Virus record (IMG/VR): IMGVR_UViG_3300031671_000549
Span: 1-43,042 of that record
Source: a virus
Reading direction: 5' to 3' (one strand)
DNA: 43,042 nucleotides
Below are positions 3,097 to 36,932 of this stretch, piece by piece. The notes under the pieces are model-generated. The model made no database searches and had not been told where the DNA came from. It saw only the letters and a program-made list of their open reading frames with translations. Position 1 is the first letter of the stretch; each line of letters opens with the position of its first letter. The translations under genes were made by a program, and so were the position numbers.

Positions 3097-4041
3097 CTAT
3101 TGGAAGAGCGAGCGGATAGGGGGGATTGCGTGGCCATTGCTAGGTGGCCCGAGCTCCGCGGGGCGTTTAGCGATCTTGTCATTTGGGCCGGGCACGTAAA
3201 CCGGTTTGCCCAGTTCGCGCCTCGGCAGGGCGCCGTTGAGTGCGAGCTCGATTCGCTGACGAGCAATTTTCAGGTAGTCCCCCGAAAGATCGGAACCGGC
3301 AGCGCGGCGGTCATGGATAACGGCGGCGCATGCGGTGCTTCCAACTCCCATATATGGATCGATGACGAGGTCGTTCGGATTGGTGAGCGCCAGAACGAGC
3401 CTCTCCACGAGCTCGATCGGAAATTGGCAGGGATGGGCGGTCTTTTCGATGTGGTTGTGCTTCACGTTTGGGATGATCCAAACGTCTCCGGGGTTCTTGC
3501 CAAGCGGATTACAGGAATACTGTCCTGTTTTCGGGCCTTTGAAATACTTCTTGCCGGGATATTTCTGAGGCACTCGGATGGGGTCGAGATTGAAAACGTA
3601 GTGGTCGGATTTCGTGAACCACAAGATCGTCTCGTAACGGCCCGATAACCTTTTTTTTGAGTGAAGGCCGTGCTCGAATGCCCACACAATTCGATTGCGG
3701 AGCTTCAGTCCCAGCTTCTTGCAGATGCGGTAGATGTAGATGTCCAGAGGAAAAATTTCGCCGTCGCGCGCGATATGATTGCCGACCTGCCAGCAGAGGC
3801 TTCCGTTCTTGGCGAGGACACGATAGCACTCGGTAATCGTGGCTTCCTGCTGCTCAAGGTAGTGATCAAATTCGAGGCGTCTCTCGTATTTTTTCCCGAT
3901 GTTGTATGGCGGTGATGTGACGATGAGGCGCGCTTCGCCCGCGACTATTGACCTCAGGAGATCCAAGCGATCGCCGAGAAAGAGAGAAGCCCGCGCTTTC
4001 TGGTTGTAGTGGTCGCAGATTCCCGACACGGTGCGGTTCAC
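3097..4041 (-). CDS. DNA methyltransferase (N4-cytosine/N6-adenine, SPPY type) of a type II R-M system
   Basis: A 314-residue S-adenosylmethionine-dependent amino-methyltransferase. Motif IV is TSPPYN (residues 42-47) and the AdoMet-binding motif I, DPYMGVGST (228-236), lies near the C-terminus. This is the beta-class order seen in many type II N4-cytosine and N6-adenine enzymes. SPPY favours N4-cytosine, which fits the M.BglII-type partner of the neighbouring nuclease. Base specificity cannot be read from sequence. The start is GTG at 4041 with AAGG nine bases upstream. It lies 56 bases downstream of the nuclease gene in the same direction and is followed by a terminator. The enzyme should protect phage and host DNA from the companion nuclease. 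Confidence 0.85.
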   Translation of the reverse strand: MNRTVSGICDHYNQKARASLFLGDRLDLLRSIVAGEARLIVTSPPYNIGKKYERRLEFDHYLEQQEATITECYRVLAKNGSLCWQVGNHIARDGEIFPLDIYIYRICKKLGLKLRNRIVWAFEHGLHSKKRLSGRYETILWFTKSDHYVFNLDPIRVPQKYPGKKYFKGPKTGQYSCNPLGKNPGDVWIIPNVKHNHIEKTAHPCQFPIELVERLVLALTNPNDLVIDPYMGVGSTACAAVIHDRRAAGSDLSGDYLKIARQRIELALNGALPRRELGKPVYVPGPNDKIAKRPAELGPPSNGHAIPPIRSLFQ

Positions 4042-28014: not shown

Positions 28015-29457
28015 TCACGCCTCAATCCACCTAATCTTCGGCAGTTCCAACCCCTGCTCGACAAGTCCCTGCACGAGCCACACGAGGGCGTCGGCCAAGT
28101 CGTCATGCGACTCCACGCCGAGATTGAAAAGCTGCCCGAGCAATTCCTCGCACCCGTTCCGGGGAAAGAGCACCGTCCCGTTCTTGATGTACGGCGCAAT
28201 GACCTGCAATCTTGACCGCTTGTCCGTGGTCGGCTTCATTGGCACGACCGGCAGCATCGCGCGCTCCATCTCCTGTATCGCGGCTTTCTGGTAGCCCACG
28301 TCCTCCACGAAAAAGAGATTTGCGCCTTTCAGTTCGCCGGGGATGTTCCGCACGTGCTGCAAGAAGTCATGGAAAACGACGTGCTTGTTGAAGGGATTGG
28401 GACGCACGAAAATCTTCGGTGCGTCCTCCACGTAAAACACTTCGCCGGAAACGATGCTCGTATAGTCCGCGCTCTCGGCTTGTGAGATGGCGAGGTCGAT
28501 GCCGTGCCCCTTGAGCGAAGCAGCCGATTTCGGCTTTTCGTCGTAGTAATGAATATCCTCCGGCTTGATGATCTGGTCTTCCTCGGCGACGATCTTGAGC
28601 AACATTTCCCGCTGCCACGCGACCGCGCCCATGTCGCGCTCTTTGTCCTTCAAGCTCTGTTCGGTCGGGTACATCGCCGGCCACGTGCATTTGCCGTCCT
28701 TATCGATCAGCGGGAATTCGAGAACGTTGAAACCCGTGTCGGGAGCCTTGAGGCGCGAAAGCAGCGCGTCCATGTGGAGCAGGTTGCCGATGACGACGAG
28801 CTTGCCTTTGCGCGCATCGATGCCCGGCATGATCTCGGAATGGAGCCAGCGGTCGGTCTTGTCGCGGTTTTCCTTCGTCCTCACCCATTCGCCGTCCTCC
28901 GGGTCGTCGATGACGACGAGCTTCGGGCGGTATTGGAGATGCCGCAGTCCCCGCACCTTCTGGCCGCGCGAACGGGCAAGGATTCGGACGCCGTTCGAGA
29001 GGACGATGTTCTGCTTCTGCCATTCCTCGCCTTCGCCCTTCAAAGCGAAGTCCTCGATGACGTTGCCCTTGATCTCGCCGTAGTCCTGCTTGATGAGGGT
29101 GTTCGTTTCGAGCTCGTGCTTTATCGCAGAGATGTTGAGCGTGGCCTGCCTGCTCGAATCGGCGACGAGGATGATGAAGGGAAATTTATCGGGATGTTCG
29201 AGCGCGGCCCACAAAGGCAACGCCAAGCTGCCGAACGTGCTTTTGCCGGAGCCGCGGAAGCCGATGATGAGCAACCGGCGGTCATCGTCGCTTTCTAACG
29301 CATGGATGAGCTCGGGATGGAATGAGGCGGGAGGGTCGGTGAAATAGCCGGTGAGGTAGACAAGCGAAAAGCCGAGGAGCGTCTTTGCGCTTGCCCGGCG
29401 CGCATCGTGCGTATCGAAAAGCGAATCAACCGGCTGGATTGCTGTTTGTTCCGGCAT
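28015..29457 (-). CDS. terL: Terminase large subunit
   Basis: A 480-residue packaging motor. The ATPase has Walker A GFRGSGKS (residues 66-73) and Walker B VVIDDPED (181-188), with an R-rich loop RSRGQKVRGLRH before it. The C-terminal nuclease domain shows GIDLAIS (Asp321), FFVEDVGYQK (Glu385/Asp386) and ESHDDLADALVWL near 450-463, the three acidic clusters of the RNase-H-fold headful/cos nuclease. Length is normal. It overlaps the small terminase by 32 bases. It docks on the portal, cuts concatemers and pumps DNA into the prohead. Confidence 0.93.
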   Translation of the reverse strand: MPEQTAIQPVDSLFDTHDARRASAKTLLGFSLVYLTGYFTDPPASFHPELIHALESDDDRRLLIIGFRGSGKSTFGSLALPLWAALEHPDKFPFIILVADSSRQATLNISAIKHELETNTLIKQDYGEIKGNVIEDFALKGEGEEWQKQNIVLSNGVRILARSRGQKVRGLRHLQYRPKLVVIDDPEDGEWVRTKENRDKTDRWLHSEIMPGIDARKGKLVVIGNLLHMDALLSRLKAPDTGFNVLEFPLIDKDGKCTWPAMYPTEQSLKDKERDMGAVAWQREMLLKIVAEEDQIIKPEDIHYYDEKPKSAASLKGHGIDLAISQAESADYTSIVSGEVFYVEDAPKIFVRPNPFNKHVVFHDFLQHVRNIPGELKGANLFFVEDVGYQKAAIQEMERAMLPVVPMKPTTDKRSRLQVIAPYIKNGTVLFPRNGCEELLGQLFNLGVESHDDLADALVWLVQGLVEQGLELPKIRWIEA

Positions 29458-29944
29458 CCTCCTTCGGGGCTTCTAACAATCCCCAGTTCTCAAAAACGGA
29501 GCGAATCGCCTGCTTGCGCTCTTCGTGAAGCGGCGTGTTGCGGATCATGAGGTCGATGCTTCCGCGCTTGCGCTCAAACACGCCCGCGTCAAAGAGCTTT
29601 TCGAAAACCACGCTGTACGCCTCGCGCACCTCGCGCATGGCAAGTGCCTTGTCCATGTTTCGGGCCATCGGGTCGTTGATGATCTCCCATCCCGCGCGGG
29701 CGATCTCGGCCATGGCGTCCTGGAACGCGGCAAGGGCCGTGTTCAGCGTCCATGTGTCGGCGCGCTTGATCCGTTCCGTGTACACGCTTTTCAAAAGCTG
29801 GCCTAAGTATTTGCGGTCGAGCCGGATGCCATCCTGCTCAAGCCGCATCTGAAGCTCGCGCTGGGTGATCTGCGGGTTCTGCGAAAGCACGCCGCGGATT
29901 TTCGACTTGTAGAGCTGCTTGTGTTCGGCTGATATGCGCGGCAT
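29426..29944 (-). CDS. Terminase small subunit-like DNA-binding protein
   Basis: A 172-residue protein directly upstream of the large terminase, overlapping it. The N-terminal ~60 residues contain a helix-turn-helix-like segment (QITQRELQMRLEQDGIRLDRKYLGQLLKSVYTERI), followed by long helices (TLNTALAAFQDAMAEIARAGWEIINDP, MREVREAYSVVFEKLFDAGVF) suited to oligomerisation. This is the usual arrangement of small terminase subunits that recognise the packaging site. A small acidic tail ends the protein. Start ATG 29944 lies 24 bases downstream of a good -10, with no visible Shine-Dalgarno. Confidence 0.75.
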   Translation of the reverse strand: MPRISAEHKQLYKSKIRGVLSQNPQITQRELQMRLEQDGIRLDRKYLGQLLKSVYTERIKRADTWTLNTALAAFQDAMAEIARAGWEIINDPMARNMDKALAMREVREAYSVVFEKLFDAGVFERKRGSIDLMIRNTPLHEERKQAIRSVFENWGLLEAPKEDAGTNSNPAG

Positions 29945-29968
29945 GAGGTGATTGGAGGGATTGCTTTC

Positions 29969-29996
29969 ATCATAGCTGGATGGCGCCCTCGTGCAA
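29969..29996 (-). promoter_or_regulatory. Probable promoter of the late (terminase-head-tail) operon
   Basis: On the minus strand a TATGAT -10 (29969-29974, 5 of 6) with 16 bases to TTGCAC (29991-29996, 3 of 6). It is the only promoter-like sequence found just before the terminase genes and is followed within 25 bases by the small terminase ATG. Confidence 0.45.
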
Positions 29997-29997
29997 G

Positions 29998-30723
29998 TCA
30001 GACGCGGATGCCGGACTTGTGCAAGAGTTCCGACACGAGCGCCCGGAACGGAGTGATCTCTTCCCTGATGTATTCTCTGCGGCAGATATACTCGATCTTG
30101 TGTGCGGAGAAGTTCCCGAGCGTTCGGAATACGTCCACCGTCTTCTTGCTATTGCGGGACAGATTGAGCATCGTGTTGTTTCTCGCATCGCTGATAATGC
30201 CGTCGAGCAGGAAATAGTTCCCGCTGCTGTCCTTTATCGCGGCGTCGATGCCGAGTTTCTGGTAGGAGAGGATCAGTAGGATTTCCACGAGGCGGCGCAT
30301 GAGCACCGCGCAGCCGTCGAATATGTTGTGCTCATAGGCGGCGTTGATTTGCTTCGCCAGAGATTCGATGTAGCCGCGTGTCTTTTGATAATCGGCGGCG
30401 GGGAGTATTGTGCCGGTGTCTATCACTTCCTGCGACTTCTCCGCAACATCCGGGAACCGTGCGTCGAGCTCGCCGATGAACTTCAGGCTGAGACGAAAAC
30501 CCCGTCCGCTCTTGATTGTGCTTTGGGAACTGCGGAGGCGCTCGGTGAGGCGGCTACGATTTGGCTTGGCCGAACCTGCTTTCACCAGCCATTGCTCCAC
30601 CTCGACGACGGTGAACTCTTCTTTTTTTTCCTTGCGAAGATAGAAAAAAGCGAGGTAACACGCTTTATCGACTTCGGCGAGCGACGTGAGATCGCACGCA
30701 GCGACAAATTGTTCGAGGGTCAC
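29998..30723 (-). CDS. Two-gene cassette, protein B: DUF4145/HEPN-like helical protein
   Basis: A 241-residue protein starting at GTG 30723, two bases after the stop of protein A. Residues 1-90 form an N-terminal DNA-binding-like region (VDKACYLAFFYLRKEKKEEFTVVEVEQWLVKAG..., SRLTERLRSSQSTIKSGRGFRLS). Residues 120-240 form an all-helical domain (AYEHNIFDGCAVLMRRLVEILLILSYQKLG..., KKTVDVFRTLGNFSAHKIEY). The RTLGNFSAHK signature recalls DUF4145/HEPN-type domains, many of which occur in toxin-antitoxin and abortive-infection systems. I remember similar gene pairs in other bacterial mobile regions. Function is not established. It is read leftward from a shared promoter at 31348-31356. Confidence 0.7.
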   Translation of the reverse strand: MTLEQFVAACDLTSLAEVDKACYLAFFYLRKEKKEEFTVVEVEQWLVKAGSAKPNRSRLTERLRSSQSTIKSGRGFRLSLKFIGELDARFPDVAEKSQEVIDTGTILPAADYQKTRGYIESLAKQINAAYEHNIFDGCAVLMRRLVEILLILSYQKLGIDAAIKDSSGNYFLLDGIISDARNNTMLNLSRNSKKTVDVFRTLGNFSAHKIEYICRREYIREEITPFRALVSELLHKSGIRV

Positions 30724-30725
30724 CG

Positions 30726-31298
30726 CTAGCCGCCGAGCGACTTCGCCACGAGTTCCTTTGCCTGACGCTCACCTTCGTCCGTGAGATACCACTGCCCCTT
30801 GTCCTCGCCGACCGGCGCCGGGGCGAGCACTTTGGCTTTCGCGAGCTCACGGCTCAAGAGCGGGGGATGGAGCTTGCCCGCGGCCTTAAAATTCTCATTG
30901 AACGTCGCGACGAGTTGAGCGGCGGAGTATTCCTTCACGCCGGTGATCTCCCGGAGGACGTAGAGCAGCCAAATGCACCGCTCCGTCACGCTCCAGCCCT
31001 GGACGGGACCGCCGAACTTCGCCGAGTCGTGGCGGAATTCGACCGGGGCCGCGGTTTCCCCGCCAGAACGGCTTGTGCTGCGGCGTCGGCTCCGGCGACT
31101 CGTGCTGTCCGTCTCAGCGTTGCCGGACGCGCGCGAGCCGTTGCCGATCTGCTTACCTTCCGCGAGGACATCGATCGGCTCAACGATGGACGACAGCTCC
31201 TTCGCGACTGCCGCGGTGATGAGGGGAATGTCCTGCCGCTCGCCATCCACTTCCAGCTCTAAACCCTGCAATTTCAGCCGCATCTTGAACTTTGCCAT
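30726..31298 (-). CDS. Two-gene cassette, protein A: basic-linker protein with winged-helix-like C-terminus
   Basis: A 190-residue protein. The N-terminal ~45 residues (MAKFKMRLKLQGLELEVDGERQDIPLITAAVAKEL) look like a compact beta-alpha domain. A Ser/Arg-rich disordered linker (about 60-85, SRRSRRRSTSRSGG) follows. A C-terminal domain (105-190, WSVTERCIWLLYVLREITGVKEYSAAQLVATFNENFK..., GQWYLTDEGERQAKELVAK) resembles a winged helix with the LTDEG wing. Start 31298 is chosen because GGGAGT lies upstream, and the longer TTG start has none. It is co-transcribed with protein B and likely acts with it. Confidence 0.72.
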   Translation of the reverse strand: MAKFKMRLKLQGLELEVDGERQDIPLITAAVAKELSSIVEPIDVLAEGKQIGNGSRASGNAETDSTSRRSRRRSTSRSGGETAAPVEFRHDSAKFGGPVQGWSVTERCIWLLYVLREITGVKEYSAAQLVATFNENFKAAGKLHPPLLSRELAKAKVLAPAPVGEDKGQWYLTDEGERQAKELVAKSLGG

Positions 31299-31347
31299 CT
31301 GAATTACTCCCAACCCTACACGAAAATTACGAGAATCTAATCAGGCA

Positions 31348-31356
31348 AGTATAGCA
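31348..31356 (-). promoter_or_regulatory. Extended -10 promoter of the two-gene cassette
   Basis: On the minus strand TGC-TATACT (31348-31356), an extended -10 element, with TTGGAT or GATTAT as weak -35 candidates 17-20 bases upstream. It lies about 50 bases before the ATG of protein A and gives the cassette its own transcription independent of the flanking operons. Confidence 0.6.
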
Positions 31357-31429
31357 CCTTCTACTCAAGGATAATCCAATATCTGGGCCTGTCACTTCAC
31401 CCCCTGATGCAGGTGCAAACTTACTTCCT

Positions 31430-31627
31430 TTATTTCTTCGATAGCTCCTTCAGCAATTCCCCGATCTTCTTCAGGTCGGCCGGCTCGCATAAAAGGTCAA
31501 TCCGGGCCTTCATCTGGTGGAGCTTGGCGAGCTGGCCTTCGTCGAAGCCGTTGCCTTCGTTGAAGTGCTTCATGAGGTCCTTGTGGCTCACGGCCGGGGT
31601 GAATTTTAGTGTGTAGCGTTCGATCAT
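31430..31627 (-). CDS. Small early protein, unknown
   Basis: A 65-residue helical protein (MIERYTLKFTPAVSHKDLMKHFNEGNGFDEGQLAKLHQMKAR...) with a Lys-rich end. Start ATG 31627 overlaps the TGA of the upstream gene (ATGA). A longer open frame to 31738 has no start evidence. It is the last cistron of an early operon running left toward the cassette. Family not recognised. Confidence 0.65.
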   Translation of the reverse strand: MIERYTLKFTPAVSHKDLMKHFNEGNGFDEGQLAKLHQMKARIDLLCEPADLKKIGELLKELSKK

Positions 31628-31980
31628 GGATTTTGTTTTCGGGCGACGTATCGGAACCAGAACCAATGCACAGGCTGTCCCTGCTTCAGCTTGCCCAGCC
31701 ATCCGTGCCGGTAGAGAACGACGGCCGGATAGAACCACGCGTTCTTAATGCGGCGGCCTGCGACGAGGAACAACGCGACGGGCGCGAGGACCATCCAACT
31801 ATCCAGCGTCCATGGATTCCAGTATTTCAGATGAACGTATACCCACCCGAACGGCCGCTTGCGAAACTCCCGCACGTAATCCAGAGGGCAGCGGAAAATA
31901 ATCCACTCGTGCCATTTCTCGGGATGGTAGGTGATCCAAACGCGGCCCGTCTTTGAGTCTGTGTGTGTTTGACAAATCAT
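31624..31980 (-). CDS. Protein with central hydrophobic segment, unknown
   Basis: A 118-residue protein rich in Trp/Tyr (WHEWIIFRCPLDYVREF, PFGWVYVHLKYWNPWTLDSWM), with one hydrophobic segment at about residues 62-75 (WMVLAPVALFLVAG) that could cross the membrane. The rest is basic and aromatic. Start ATG 31980 has no clear ribosome site. The frame is open upstream but has no start codon. A membrane or peripheral-membrane protein is likely. No family is recognised. Confidence 0.6.
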   Translation of the reverse strand: MICQTHTDSKTGRVWITYHPEKWHEWIIFRCPLDYVREFRKRPFGWVYVHLKYWNPWTLDSWMVLAPVALFLVAGRRIKNAWFYPAVVLYRHGWLGKLKQGQPVHWFWFRYVARKQNP

Positions 31981-34130: not shown

Positions 34131-34565
34131 TCAGTTTTTCGCTTCACGAATCGACCAACAGGTGAGGTTCGTACCGCACGCGTTGCGGATGCTCTGTTCG
34201 GAGATCGTGGGTTTGTTCCGGTAGCCGAACTCCACCGCGACGACGTTTTTGTAGACCCCTATCCCGACATCTTTCCATGAGGGGTTGAGGAGATTCTGGC
34301 GGTGTTCTGGCGAATTGAGGAAGGCATCGTCGATGAGGACGGCGCGGAAAAGGGTGCTTGAGACGTTGAATCCCTCGGCGAGATTCTCTCCGACGTGGCC
34401 GTAATAGCCGGTCTGGTCGAAGGGTTGGGCGAAGCCGTCATGCGAGAAATTGAGATATGCCTGTGCCGCGCGGATCTGGGCGACTTCGGTGAGCGTCGGC
34501 GAAATCCTCAACGGTGTTGAGCGGTTCAGGTTGATGAGAAGGGCTAATGCGGTGATGAGGGTCAT
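34131..34565 (-). CDS. Secreted CAP-domain (SCP/PR1-like) protein
   Basis: A 144-residue protein with an N-terminal signal-like segment (MTLITALALLINLNRS) and a CAP superfamily core: EVAQIRAAQAYLNFSHDGF, GYYGHVGENLAEGF (the conserved xGENL helix) and NSPEHRQNLLNPSWKDVGIGVYKNVVAVEFG (H-R/N-xxLL and GIGV). Bacterial CAP proteins are usually extracytoplasmic. Some bind sterols or ions and several have protease-like residues, and their roles are poorly known. Two C-terminal Cys (CGTNLTC) may form a disulfide. Start 34565 overlaps the upstream TGA (ATGA), and the 14 residues open upstream were dropped. An exported CAP protein in a phage early operon is unusual. Confidence 0.75.
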   Translation of the reverse strand: MTLITALALLINLNRSTPLRISPTLTEVAQIRAAQAYLNFSHDGFAQPFDQTGYYGHVGENLAEGFNVSSTLFRAVLIDDAFLNSPEHRQNLLNPSWKDVGIGVYKNVVAVEFGYRNKPTISEQSIRNACGTNLTCWSIREAKN

Positions 34566-35065
34566 GCGAATAATGATTGCGGTTTTGCGGCCTTTTCCTC
34601 GCTCCAAGTGGTGTGGGTGTGCTTCCAGTCAAATGTGCAACCTGGGCGCGGGCATTTCCATTCGGGAGGCGTAGGAAGGTGTGCCTCTATCGCGTCGTCA
34701 ACCGGGGAACCGACGATAGTGCCGATGTAGTTCTCGGCCGGAATGACCTTCATCCGATACCAGTAAAGTTTTGGATTCTCCGGATCGTGCCAGCCTTTCA
34801 AATCGCCCTTACTGATTCCGAGAAGATTGCCGTGAATATCGATGAACTGACACCTTGTCTTTCCTGACCATCGTCCCTCCGCAAGGTCATTTATCCTGCC
34901 GCCGACGCGAGCCAAGCTCTTGAAGTCGCCGCGGCCACAGTGGAAACAGATATTGGAGGATGGGTAGACGGCCTTCACGATCTCGTCCGTCCGGTGAGGT
35001 CGGCCGTCTTTCAAAAGCTCGTAGAGACGCGCCGTTTGTGAGATTGGGGCGTTGTGGGTGGTCAT
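34562..35065 (-). CDS. Winged-helix/zinc-knuckle early protein
   Basis: A 167-residue protein. Residues 8-60 read as a winged helix (QTARLYELLKDGRPHRTDEIVKAVYP, ARVGGRINDL) interrupted by a CFHC (ICFHCGRGDF) knuckle. The C-terminus has a second CPRPGC (WKCPRPGCTFDWKHTHTTW). DNA-binding regulation or replication-initiation accessory functions fit, but no exact family is known. Its ATG (35063-35065) overlaps the 6-bp target duplication of the adjacent transposon, so the element lies directly at its 5' end. The native leader is now ~2.5 kb away at 37588 onward. No ribosome site is visible. It heads the early operon reading left. Confidence 0.7.
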   Translation of the reverse strand: MTTHNAPISQTARLYELLKDGRPHRTDEIVKAVYPSSNICFHCGRGDFKSLARVGGRINDLAEGRWSGKTRCQFIDIHGNLLGISKGDLKGWHDPENPKLYWYRMKVIPAENYIGTIVGSPVDDAIEAHLPTPPEWKCPRPGCTFDWKHTHTTWSEEKAAKPQSLFA

Positions 35066-36060: not shown

Positions 36061-36894
36061 TCATTCCCTGCTATCGAGCAGCGAAATCATTTCCTCGATA
36101 GACCAAACATGGTCCGCGATTCCCGCTTCCATCGCGGGAGTCACGCGGAGCGTTTCGTGGACTCGGCAGAAATTGTAATGCATGTAGTGAATCGCAATCG
36201 ACGCGATGTGATTCTCGACTTTCTTCGAGTGGGCGTTGGTCAGTCGCGTGAATCGGCGCATGTGCATCCGCATGGTGAGGTTTTGCCTCTCGACGAAACT
36301 GGTAGAGACGTGCCGGGAATCGGGCTTTCCAGAAATCGCCACCTCGCGGCAGCCGATGCACTCTGCCGGGCTGTACCGCGTGTCATTCGACCCATCGTTA
36401 CCGTAGAGCTTGACCAGCATCGCGTAATCGATCTCGCTTCCAAAGCTATCTTCCACAGCATTCAGATATGGGCGATGGCCGTCCGTTGTCAGTTGCACGC
36501 GATTCGCAAGCCGCTTTGCCAAGTCCTGCATAAAACCGTAGGCGCTTCCAGCGTCGCGTCCGGCAACGAGCCAAGAAACGATCAGTTTGCTGTCGGCATC
36601 CATTCCAACCCACGTCCACACGTCGCCATAGCCAAACTTGCCGCGAAGCTCTCCCCGAAGGTTTTTCTCTTTGGCATAGCAGAAAGACCAAATTTCGTCG
36701 CACTGAATGCGCTTGCTGTTCAAATTAATCAGGGCCTTGTCGAGGTATTCAGAGCAGGCCGCACCAAGTTCAACGAGCAACTTCGCAATCGTGTTCTTGG
36801 AGACGCCCGTCATGCGCACGGTCGCCCGGATGCCGTTACCTTCGACAAGGGCCGCAACCACTTGACGCCGCTTCTCTGTGCTCAGCTTGTTCAT
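36061..36894 (-). CDS. IS1-like DDE transposase
   Basis: A 277-residue transposase with a helix-turn-helix N-terminus (QVVAALVEGNGIRATVRMTGVSKNTIAKLLVELG) and a DDE catalytic core: Asp66 in RIQCDEIWSF, Asp138 in TTDGHRPY and Glu202 in SFVERQNLTMRMHMRRF, with HxMHYNFCRVHETLRVTPAMEAG near the C-terminus. It is annotated as IS1-like by overall pattern. A start 10 codons upstream (36924) was rejected because a strong promoter (-10 TACAAT at 36904-36909) puts the transcript start near 36897, so ATG 36894 is the likely start. It cuts and joins the 21-bp ends of the surrounding element. Confidence 0.88.
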   Translation of the reverse strand: MNKLSTEKRRQVVAALVEGNGIRATVRMTGVSKNTIAKLLVELGAACSEYLDKALINLNSKRIQCDEIWSFCYAKEKNLRGELRGKFGYGDVWTWVGMDADSKLIVSWLVAGRDAGSAYGFMQDLAKRLANRVQLTTDGHRPYLNAVEDSFGSEIDYAMLVKLYGNDGSNDTRYSPAECIGCREVAISGKPDSRHVSTSFVERQNLTMRMHMRRFTRLTNAHSKKVENHIASIAIHYMHYNFCRVHETLRVTPAMEAGIADHVWSIEEMISLLDSRE

Positions 36895-36903
36895 AATGGA
36901 CAC

Positions 36904-36932
36904 ATTGTATAAGCGGTCAAGCATAAAGTCAA
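36904..36932 (-). promoter_or_regulatory. Strong promoter of the transposase gene
   Basis: On the minus strand TTGACT (36927-36932), a 17-base spacer and TACAAT (36904-36909), both 5 of 6 to consensus. The transcript would begin a few bases before the ATG at 36894, giving an almost leaderless message. Confidence 0.65.

Follow-up and report, generated by a model that had tools for sequence, protein, structure and literature searches.

The window, by which we mean the whole 43,042-base stretch of virus record IMGVR_UViG_3300031671_000549, is a temperate tailed phage, judging from its integrase, RecE/RecT/SSB-like, RusA, TerL and portal genes. A tyrosine integrase occupies its left end (1-1056; phrog_1, 1.8e-48). 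Genes A and B (Table 1) are co-directional on the minus strand and exactly 2 bases apart, and the two-gene unit described in an earlier note on this DNA is therefore present. On the 5' side of A are RusA, conserved small genes and the early recombination genes (RecE/RecT/SSB), and on the 3' side of B are TerS and then TerL, all on the strand of A and B, which agrees with the location between early operon and terminase genes given in that note. Both are real genes by sequence criteria, since B has clear homologues and A scores against a profile from which it was excluded; for A, a TTG at 31313 is an alternative start that would yield 195 aa. The same note assigned the pair its own promoter. The extended -10 element is indeed there, and its pattern, TGNTATAMT, has 2 matches in the window where shuffles would give 0.34, but the -35 is weak, with no good candidate, and a generic sigma-70 scan gave matches no more often than chance; the putative promoter is based on this single extended -10 box. 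Elsewhere on the minus strand of the window lie a DNA methyltransferase gene near the integrase end (3097-4041; phrog_67, 4e-54) with no obvious restriction partner, a transposase-like ORF in the early region (36061-36924; sub-threshold DDE/IS1 matches, HTH), possibly an insertion or remnant, and an ORF (34131-34607) that by eye resembles a CAP/SCP-type secreted protein, unusual for a phage early region.

Table 1. Features of the A-B locus and its flanks, in window positions.
Feature	Position	Strand	Description and basis
Variable cargo slot	29945..31429	.	Between U102 and TerS; 1485 bases in the window
U102	31430-31738	-	Conserved 102-aa gene; flank of slot
TerS	29426-29944	-	Gene at TerS position; flank of slot
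Extended -10 promoter-like element	31348..31356	-	TGCTATACT; 50 bases upstream of A
Ribosome-binding site of A	31307..31311	-	GGGAG, 8 bases before ATG; from sequence
Gene A	30726..31298	-	ORF, ATG start, 190 aa
A residues 1-45	31164..31298	-	Strand-strand-helix N-terminus (MAKFKMRLKLQGLELEVDGE...); pattern common to A homologues
A residues 100-187	30738..31001	-	Winged-helix-like domain; alignment and AlphaFold pattern
Gene B	29998..30723	-	ORF, GTG start, 241 aa
B residues 12-90	30454..30690	-	Winged-helix-like domain; AlphaFold model, Foldseek and alignment to L055B
B residues 113-241	30001..30387	-	HEPN-fold domain, DUF4145 type; AlphaFold model, Foldseek and homologue profile match
RTLGNFSAH	30100..30126	-	Family motif [RK]xxG[NDH]xSAH; Gly at the Arg place of canonical HEPN RX4-6H

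Relatives of the window phage were recovered through TerL as 47 viral loci, most of which keep the order U173, U102, TerS, TerL, and none of which (0/47) carries A or B. Among the 29 of these loci that span it, the interval between U102 and TerS varies from 44 to 1682 bases and contains mostly unrelated genes in either orientation. By this sequence comparison the interval is a hypervariable cargo slot, as the earlier description of the site as a cargo position had anticipated. The slot of one relative (L023:1069-2621) holds a GmrSD_N protein (PADLOC NsnA, 8e-68; PD-T4-2_A, 1e-52) and a HEPN_RiboL-PSP protein (6e-16), which on these profile matches are a defence-type pair in a position equivalent to that of A-B. 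Other relatives carry a DUF4231/SLATT-like protein (L007) or a DUF7019 protein (L046), and most of the slot cargo, which includes membrane proteins, is unassigned.

Homologues of B, collected stepwise in successive searches, occur in 9 loci at 25-46% identity (BLASTP, E 1e-19 to 1e-50), one of them with 36.7% identity over 240 aa (E 1.6e-50), and the homologue of locus L055 (L055B) aligns with B over its full length. As modelled, B is a winged-helix-like N-terminus joined to a DUF4145-type HEPN C-terminus, the winged helix being a low-confidence model. This winged-helix-like start, a point absent from the earlier note, is predicted by AlphaFold (AF2) as helix-helix-helix-hairpin-helix with pLDDT 57-72, and Foldseek places it with forkhead and other winged helices at non-significant E values. 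The C-terminal part is modelled better, most blocks between residues 121 and 240 having pLDDT 81-94, with a poor loop at 205-212, and in this model shows the four-to-five-helix fold of HEPN domains. Its best PDB match in Foldseek is the HEPN protein 2hsb (probability 1.00, TM 0.68 by target, E 0.06); further matches, at E 0.06 or above, include Csm6 and HepT (5yep, 7bxo), and a structural search of viral structure models returned no significant match to B. Against Pfam DUF4145 (PF13643), window B scores 14.8 bits, under the gathering cut-off of 23.1, and its match to DUF5677 is likewise sub-threshold. The homologue L068B', to which window B is related with a BLASTP E of 1.5e-29, exceeds the DUF4145 cut-off with 26.7 bits and a second, L069B'', reaches 23.1; through L068B', B is taken to be of the DUF4145 type. 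The helical end that had been called DUF4145/HEPN-like from the letters alone is thus recovered both as a fold and through this homologue.

The peptide RTLGNFSAHK, which the earlier note had singled out, is found at residues 200-209 of B. Within the family motif the G, S, A and H are invariant in all 12 members (window B and 11 homologues), and the L090 homologue has N at the [RK] place. None of the 12 has the canonical RX4-6H, Gly standing for Arg. The same Gly form, IQKVGNQAVH, occurs in the DUF4145 domain of a type I R-subunit-like protein (L064); a further protein (L060) has GNDARH yet retains R-x6-H, and three others (L059, L061 and L062) have RN...H. Because RX4-6H is absent in the B family, an HEPN RNase mechanism is not established for B.

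By sequence profile, protein A belongs, distantly but significantly, to the family of B partners. An HMM was built from six proteins whose genes neighbour B homologues, with A left out; A scores 24.3 bits against it (E 9.5e-7), compared with 3.6 bits for the highest-scoring of 3000 shuffled versions. Pairwise searches and a two-sequence HMM left the homology undetected and the six-sequence HMM was needed; two collinear local alignments of A with A homologues have z>5. The family architecture begins with a short N-terminus with K-x-K-[IL]-G-[EN]-[IV]-E, followed by a linker and then by one winged helix or two, and A itself is laid out as an N-terminal beta segment, a Ser/Arg-rich linker and a C-terminal winged-helix-like domain. 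The N-terminus of A aligns with that of L057A (SW z=5.1) and is modelled by AF2, at low confidence, with strands at 3-10 and 13-20, and an HMM of the N-terminus only did not separate A from shuffles; the apparent kinship of this segment draws on the shared pattern and one pairwise score. The C-terminal domain aligns with residues 90-200 of L055A (SW z=5.3) and its AF2 model runs H-H-H-strand-H at pLDDT about 60, within a whole-protein model that is poor (pLDDT 45). For the winged-helix-like end that had been proposed for A, then, the family alignment is supportive and the model fits weakly. Pfam, PADLOC and NCBIfam profiles gave no match for A. Alignment did not support homology of A with the small winged-helix proteins of L056 and L068 or with DUF5343, nor a paralogous relation between the winged helices of A and B.

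Across 391 clostridial genomes B occurs in 7 and A in 6, all 6 among the 7 and with the genes adjacent, and no genome of this set has A without B. It is the absence of A-only genomes that is informative, because some loci of the same set went into the A profile. An earlier sample of 349 genomes had A and B in the same two genomes. The order is A-B in the window, L082 and L083, and B-A in L055, L057, L078 and L080. Other B homologues have other neighbours: those of L056 and L068 are paired with a different small winged-helix protein (the two are 55% identical to each other), that of L069 overlaps a DUF5343-type gene (Pfam), with the same layout by eye in L090 and L093, and in L081/G566 no partner gene was detected beside B. 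Across these arrangements the partner of B varies, being of the A type, a small winged-helix protein or a DUF5343 protein. Searches by tblastn found no match for window B in phages or for window A and B in plasmids, nor for L050B in plasmids or L055B in either set. In viral contigs, scans with single sequences and with the first profiles also yielded no relatives; these surfaced only with broader alignments.

Restriction-modification (R-M) systems of type II or III adjoin 5 of 13 related loci, and most of the others adjoin integrases or prophage ends. R-M genes make up about a percent of a typical genome, and the proportion of 5/13 is therefore far above chance, as judged against this general figure and not a matched background. 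Type II endonuclease (NF052465, 314.6 bits against a cut-off of 290), methyltransferase, B and A follow one another in G198/L055, with a TnpV gene nearby. G643/L079 has a methyltransferase, called from an NPPY motif and position and with no PDB match, and an SdaI-like endonuclease (1e-46), then B and A; in this genome both are broken by frame changes (L079:9259-10971), a decaying copy. In G705/L080, B and A are followed by type III Mod (2e-24) and Res, in G566/L081 Mod (6e-47) and Res precede B, and in L090 the order is DUF5343 protein, B, endonuclease and TaqI-like methyltransferase, this endonuclease being called only by its position beside the methyltransferase, with no PDB match. The homologue-neighbour search that the earlier note had suggested for defence linkage thus finds R-M systems immediately adjacent at these five loci. 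The presence of the pair in other mobile regions, to which that note pointed, is likewise borne out by integrases, a serine recombinase and prophage ends beside homologues: a tyrosine integrase lies alongside the L068 and L069 pairs, L093 is by appearance a prophage end, the prophage pair of G710/L082 is flanked by lysis-type genes on one side and a large serine recombinase on the other, and in G720/L083 an integrase is, by appearance, about 2 kb away. In G001/L056 an integron integrase lies 219 bases from the pair; since the pair lies 3' of the integrase, with no attC shown, adjacency alone is claimed and not an integron cassette. The element of L069 that bears the integrase also carries a PARIS AriAB homologue (L069:9434-10387; 4.5e-41), 4 kb from the DUF5343-B pair. 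Homologues scattered singly among housekeeping genes, which would have spoken against the defence reading, are not the pattern observed: A occurs only with B and most loci have R-M, integrase or prophage neighbours. Two clostridial copies, L057 and L078, do sit among housekeeping genes. DpnI (2e-76) is 3.4 kb from the pair in G693/L078, no defence gene was seen near the G002/L057 pair, and the window pair has no R-M neighbour.

No PADLOC profile matches A or B even at E 10, and no NCBIfam or Pfam model reaches threshold for either. In the portion of the literature on related HEPN/DUF4145 systems that was covered, no published description of the pair was found, nor, in keeping with the earlier note, a published function for it, and nothing was found on DUF5343. 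Anantharaman et al. 2013 (PMC3710099) place DUF4145 among the recognised HEPN groups, note its occurrence with R-M genes and give about 80% as the share that keeps the motif. The R-M-linked proteins of this type share with the A-B family the HEPN fold, R-M operon linkage, fused N-terminal domains and mobile context, but DUF4145 mostly bears the motif, whereas the B family has Gly for Arg throughout; the winged-helix N-terminus and the A partner were not found described in the text covered. PD-lambda-5, described by Vassallo et al. (PMC9519451) as a prophage system of RM plus Abi, resembles A-B in being prophage-borne and in its RM plus possible Abi logic. It has a methyltransferase fused to a HEPN-like region, whereas in the A-B family R, M, B and A are separate or R-M is absent. 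The 315-409 part of the PADLOC profile PD-Lambda-5_A weakly matches the HEPN domains of L056 (3.8e-4), L069 (0.006) and L068 (0.04) and does not match window B, which has no methyltransferase domain. The computational PADLOC candidate PDC-M34 has a DUF5343 protein, and the L069 partner matches PDC-M34A (2e-13), L090 and L093 having the same two-gene layout by eye; neither PADLOC nor Pfam gave a DUF5343/PDC-M34A match for window A, and there is no PDC-M34B match for B. Tha is a prophage HEPN anti-phage system that protects the lysogen (PMC11087260). Like the proposed A-B it has a prophage-encoded HEPN effector, in a different genomic position, but it has R265/H270 (RX4H) and an inhibitor, Ith (PMC11087260), whereas the B family is without RX4-6H. 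BxaP, an experimentally supported, BREX-associated defence protein (PMC10799925), likewise has a DUF4145 domain beside a defence system, but at the N-terminus of a single-gene product with a HEAT-like C-terminus, whereas A-B is a pair with the HEPN domain at the C-terminus of B. As regards HEPN/MNT toxin-antitoxin systems, no minimal nucleotidyltransferase is adjacent and partner A is winged-helix-type, with no Pfam match. Within the literature covered, HEPN-linked defence modules are known as a kind, and the A-B pair and its Gly-type family, which have no PADLOC or NCBIfam profile, appear to be new.

We propose that A and B together make up a single mobile module, most probably anti-phage, carried as cargo by a temperate phage to the benefit of the lysogen. 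A defence function we regard as likely, and HEPN ribonuclease action as its means has rather less than an even chance. The R-M and integrase or prophage neighbours of related loci support a mobile defence module; against it count the missing RX4-6H, the lack of an R-M neighbour in the window, the two clostridial copies among housekeeping genes, the failure of the window proteins to reach any profile threshold and the low confidence of the winged-helix models. Gene order suggests that A and B would form a complex, whose winged helices may recognise infecting phage nucleic acid or a restriction-related state, and as effector the dimeric HEPN domain of B would halt the infection. RNA might be cut or bound there by the invariant His together with the [RK] located eight residues N-terminal to it. 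The earlier note remarked that HEPN-type domains are frequent in abortive infection; that A-B acts in this way through cleavage of RNA did not gain from the comparison, RX4-6H being absent in every member, and can be offered as conjecture only. Next to an R-M system the module might act as a partner or second line; the window copy stands alone. More tentatively, the family may be one of modular defence systems, in which a DUF4145 HEPN protein of the Gly type, itself bearing a winged helix, combines with one of several DNA-binding-like partners that can replace each other (A type, small winged helix or DUF5343), serving both as stand-alone temperate-phage cargo and as a partner of type II/III restriction, with an effector chemistry unlike that of canonical HEPN RNases.

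The main rival to a defence effector is a purely nucleic-acid-binding or regulatory role, which is tenable for B because the arginine is missing. The pair would then assist or regulate mobile elements of the R-M type and would not be an abortive-infection effector: the winged helices would control expression or activity by binding DNA, and dimerisation or nucleic-acid binding would be all that the Gly-type HEPN domain does, as in the DUF4145-bearing subunits of type I restriction systems. We consider this unlikely: it would accommodate the missing RX4-6H, the Gly form shared with the R-subunit-like L064 and the five adjacent R-M systems of different types, yet many copies, that of the window included, keep the invariant SAH with no R-M nearby, and the very difference in R-M types makes a specific regulator less likely. 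The small size of the two genes, their overlap or abutment, the exchange of small partners and the mobile settings would also fit an addiction module of the toxin-antitoxin kind, with B as toxin, A (or the winged-helix or DUF5343 proteins) as antitoxin, element stability as the chief benefit and defence as a secondary one. The HEPN/MNT precedent and the HepT structures among the Foldseek matches lend this some appeal, but B has no detected partner in G566, the catalytic motif is absent and addiction is of less use to a resident phage that itself encodes an integrase, and we hold it to be quite improbable. The position directly upstream of TerS, on the strand of the terminase genes, might instead reflect a function in phage biology such as packaging or lysogeny control; given that none of the 47 relatives, the majority of which have the same flanking genes, carries the pair, and that chromosomal homologues in bacteria lie beside R-M genes, there is very little likelihood of this.

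If the proposed anti-phage role of A-B is correct, the pair would be a two-gene module linking R-M systems and prophage-borne defence, and B a test case for whether HEPN domains can still act as effectors when the catalytic arginine is missing. The equivalents of the slot in the relatives (L002-L048) are a possible source of further defence genes. Three of these relatives show a second match to the C-terminal part of TerL, several hundred bases downstream of the main one (L024:6120-6437, L025:9550-9660 and L027:10350-10460), which suggests, from sequence matches, a terminase gene with an intron- or insertion-like interruption.
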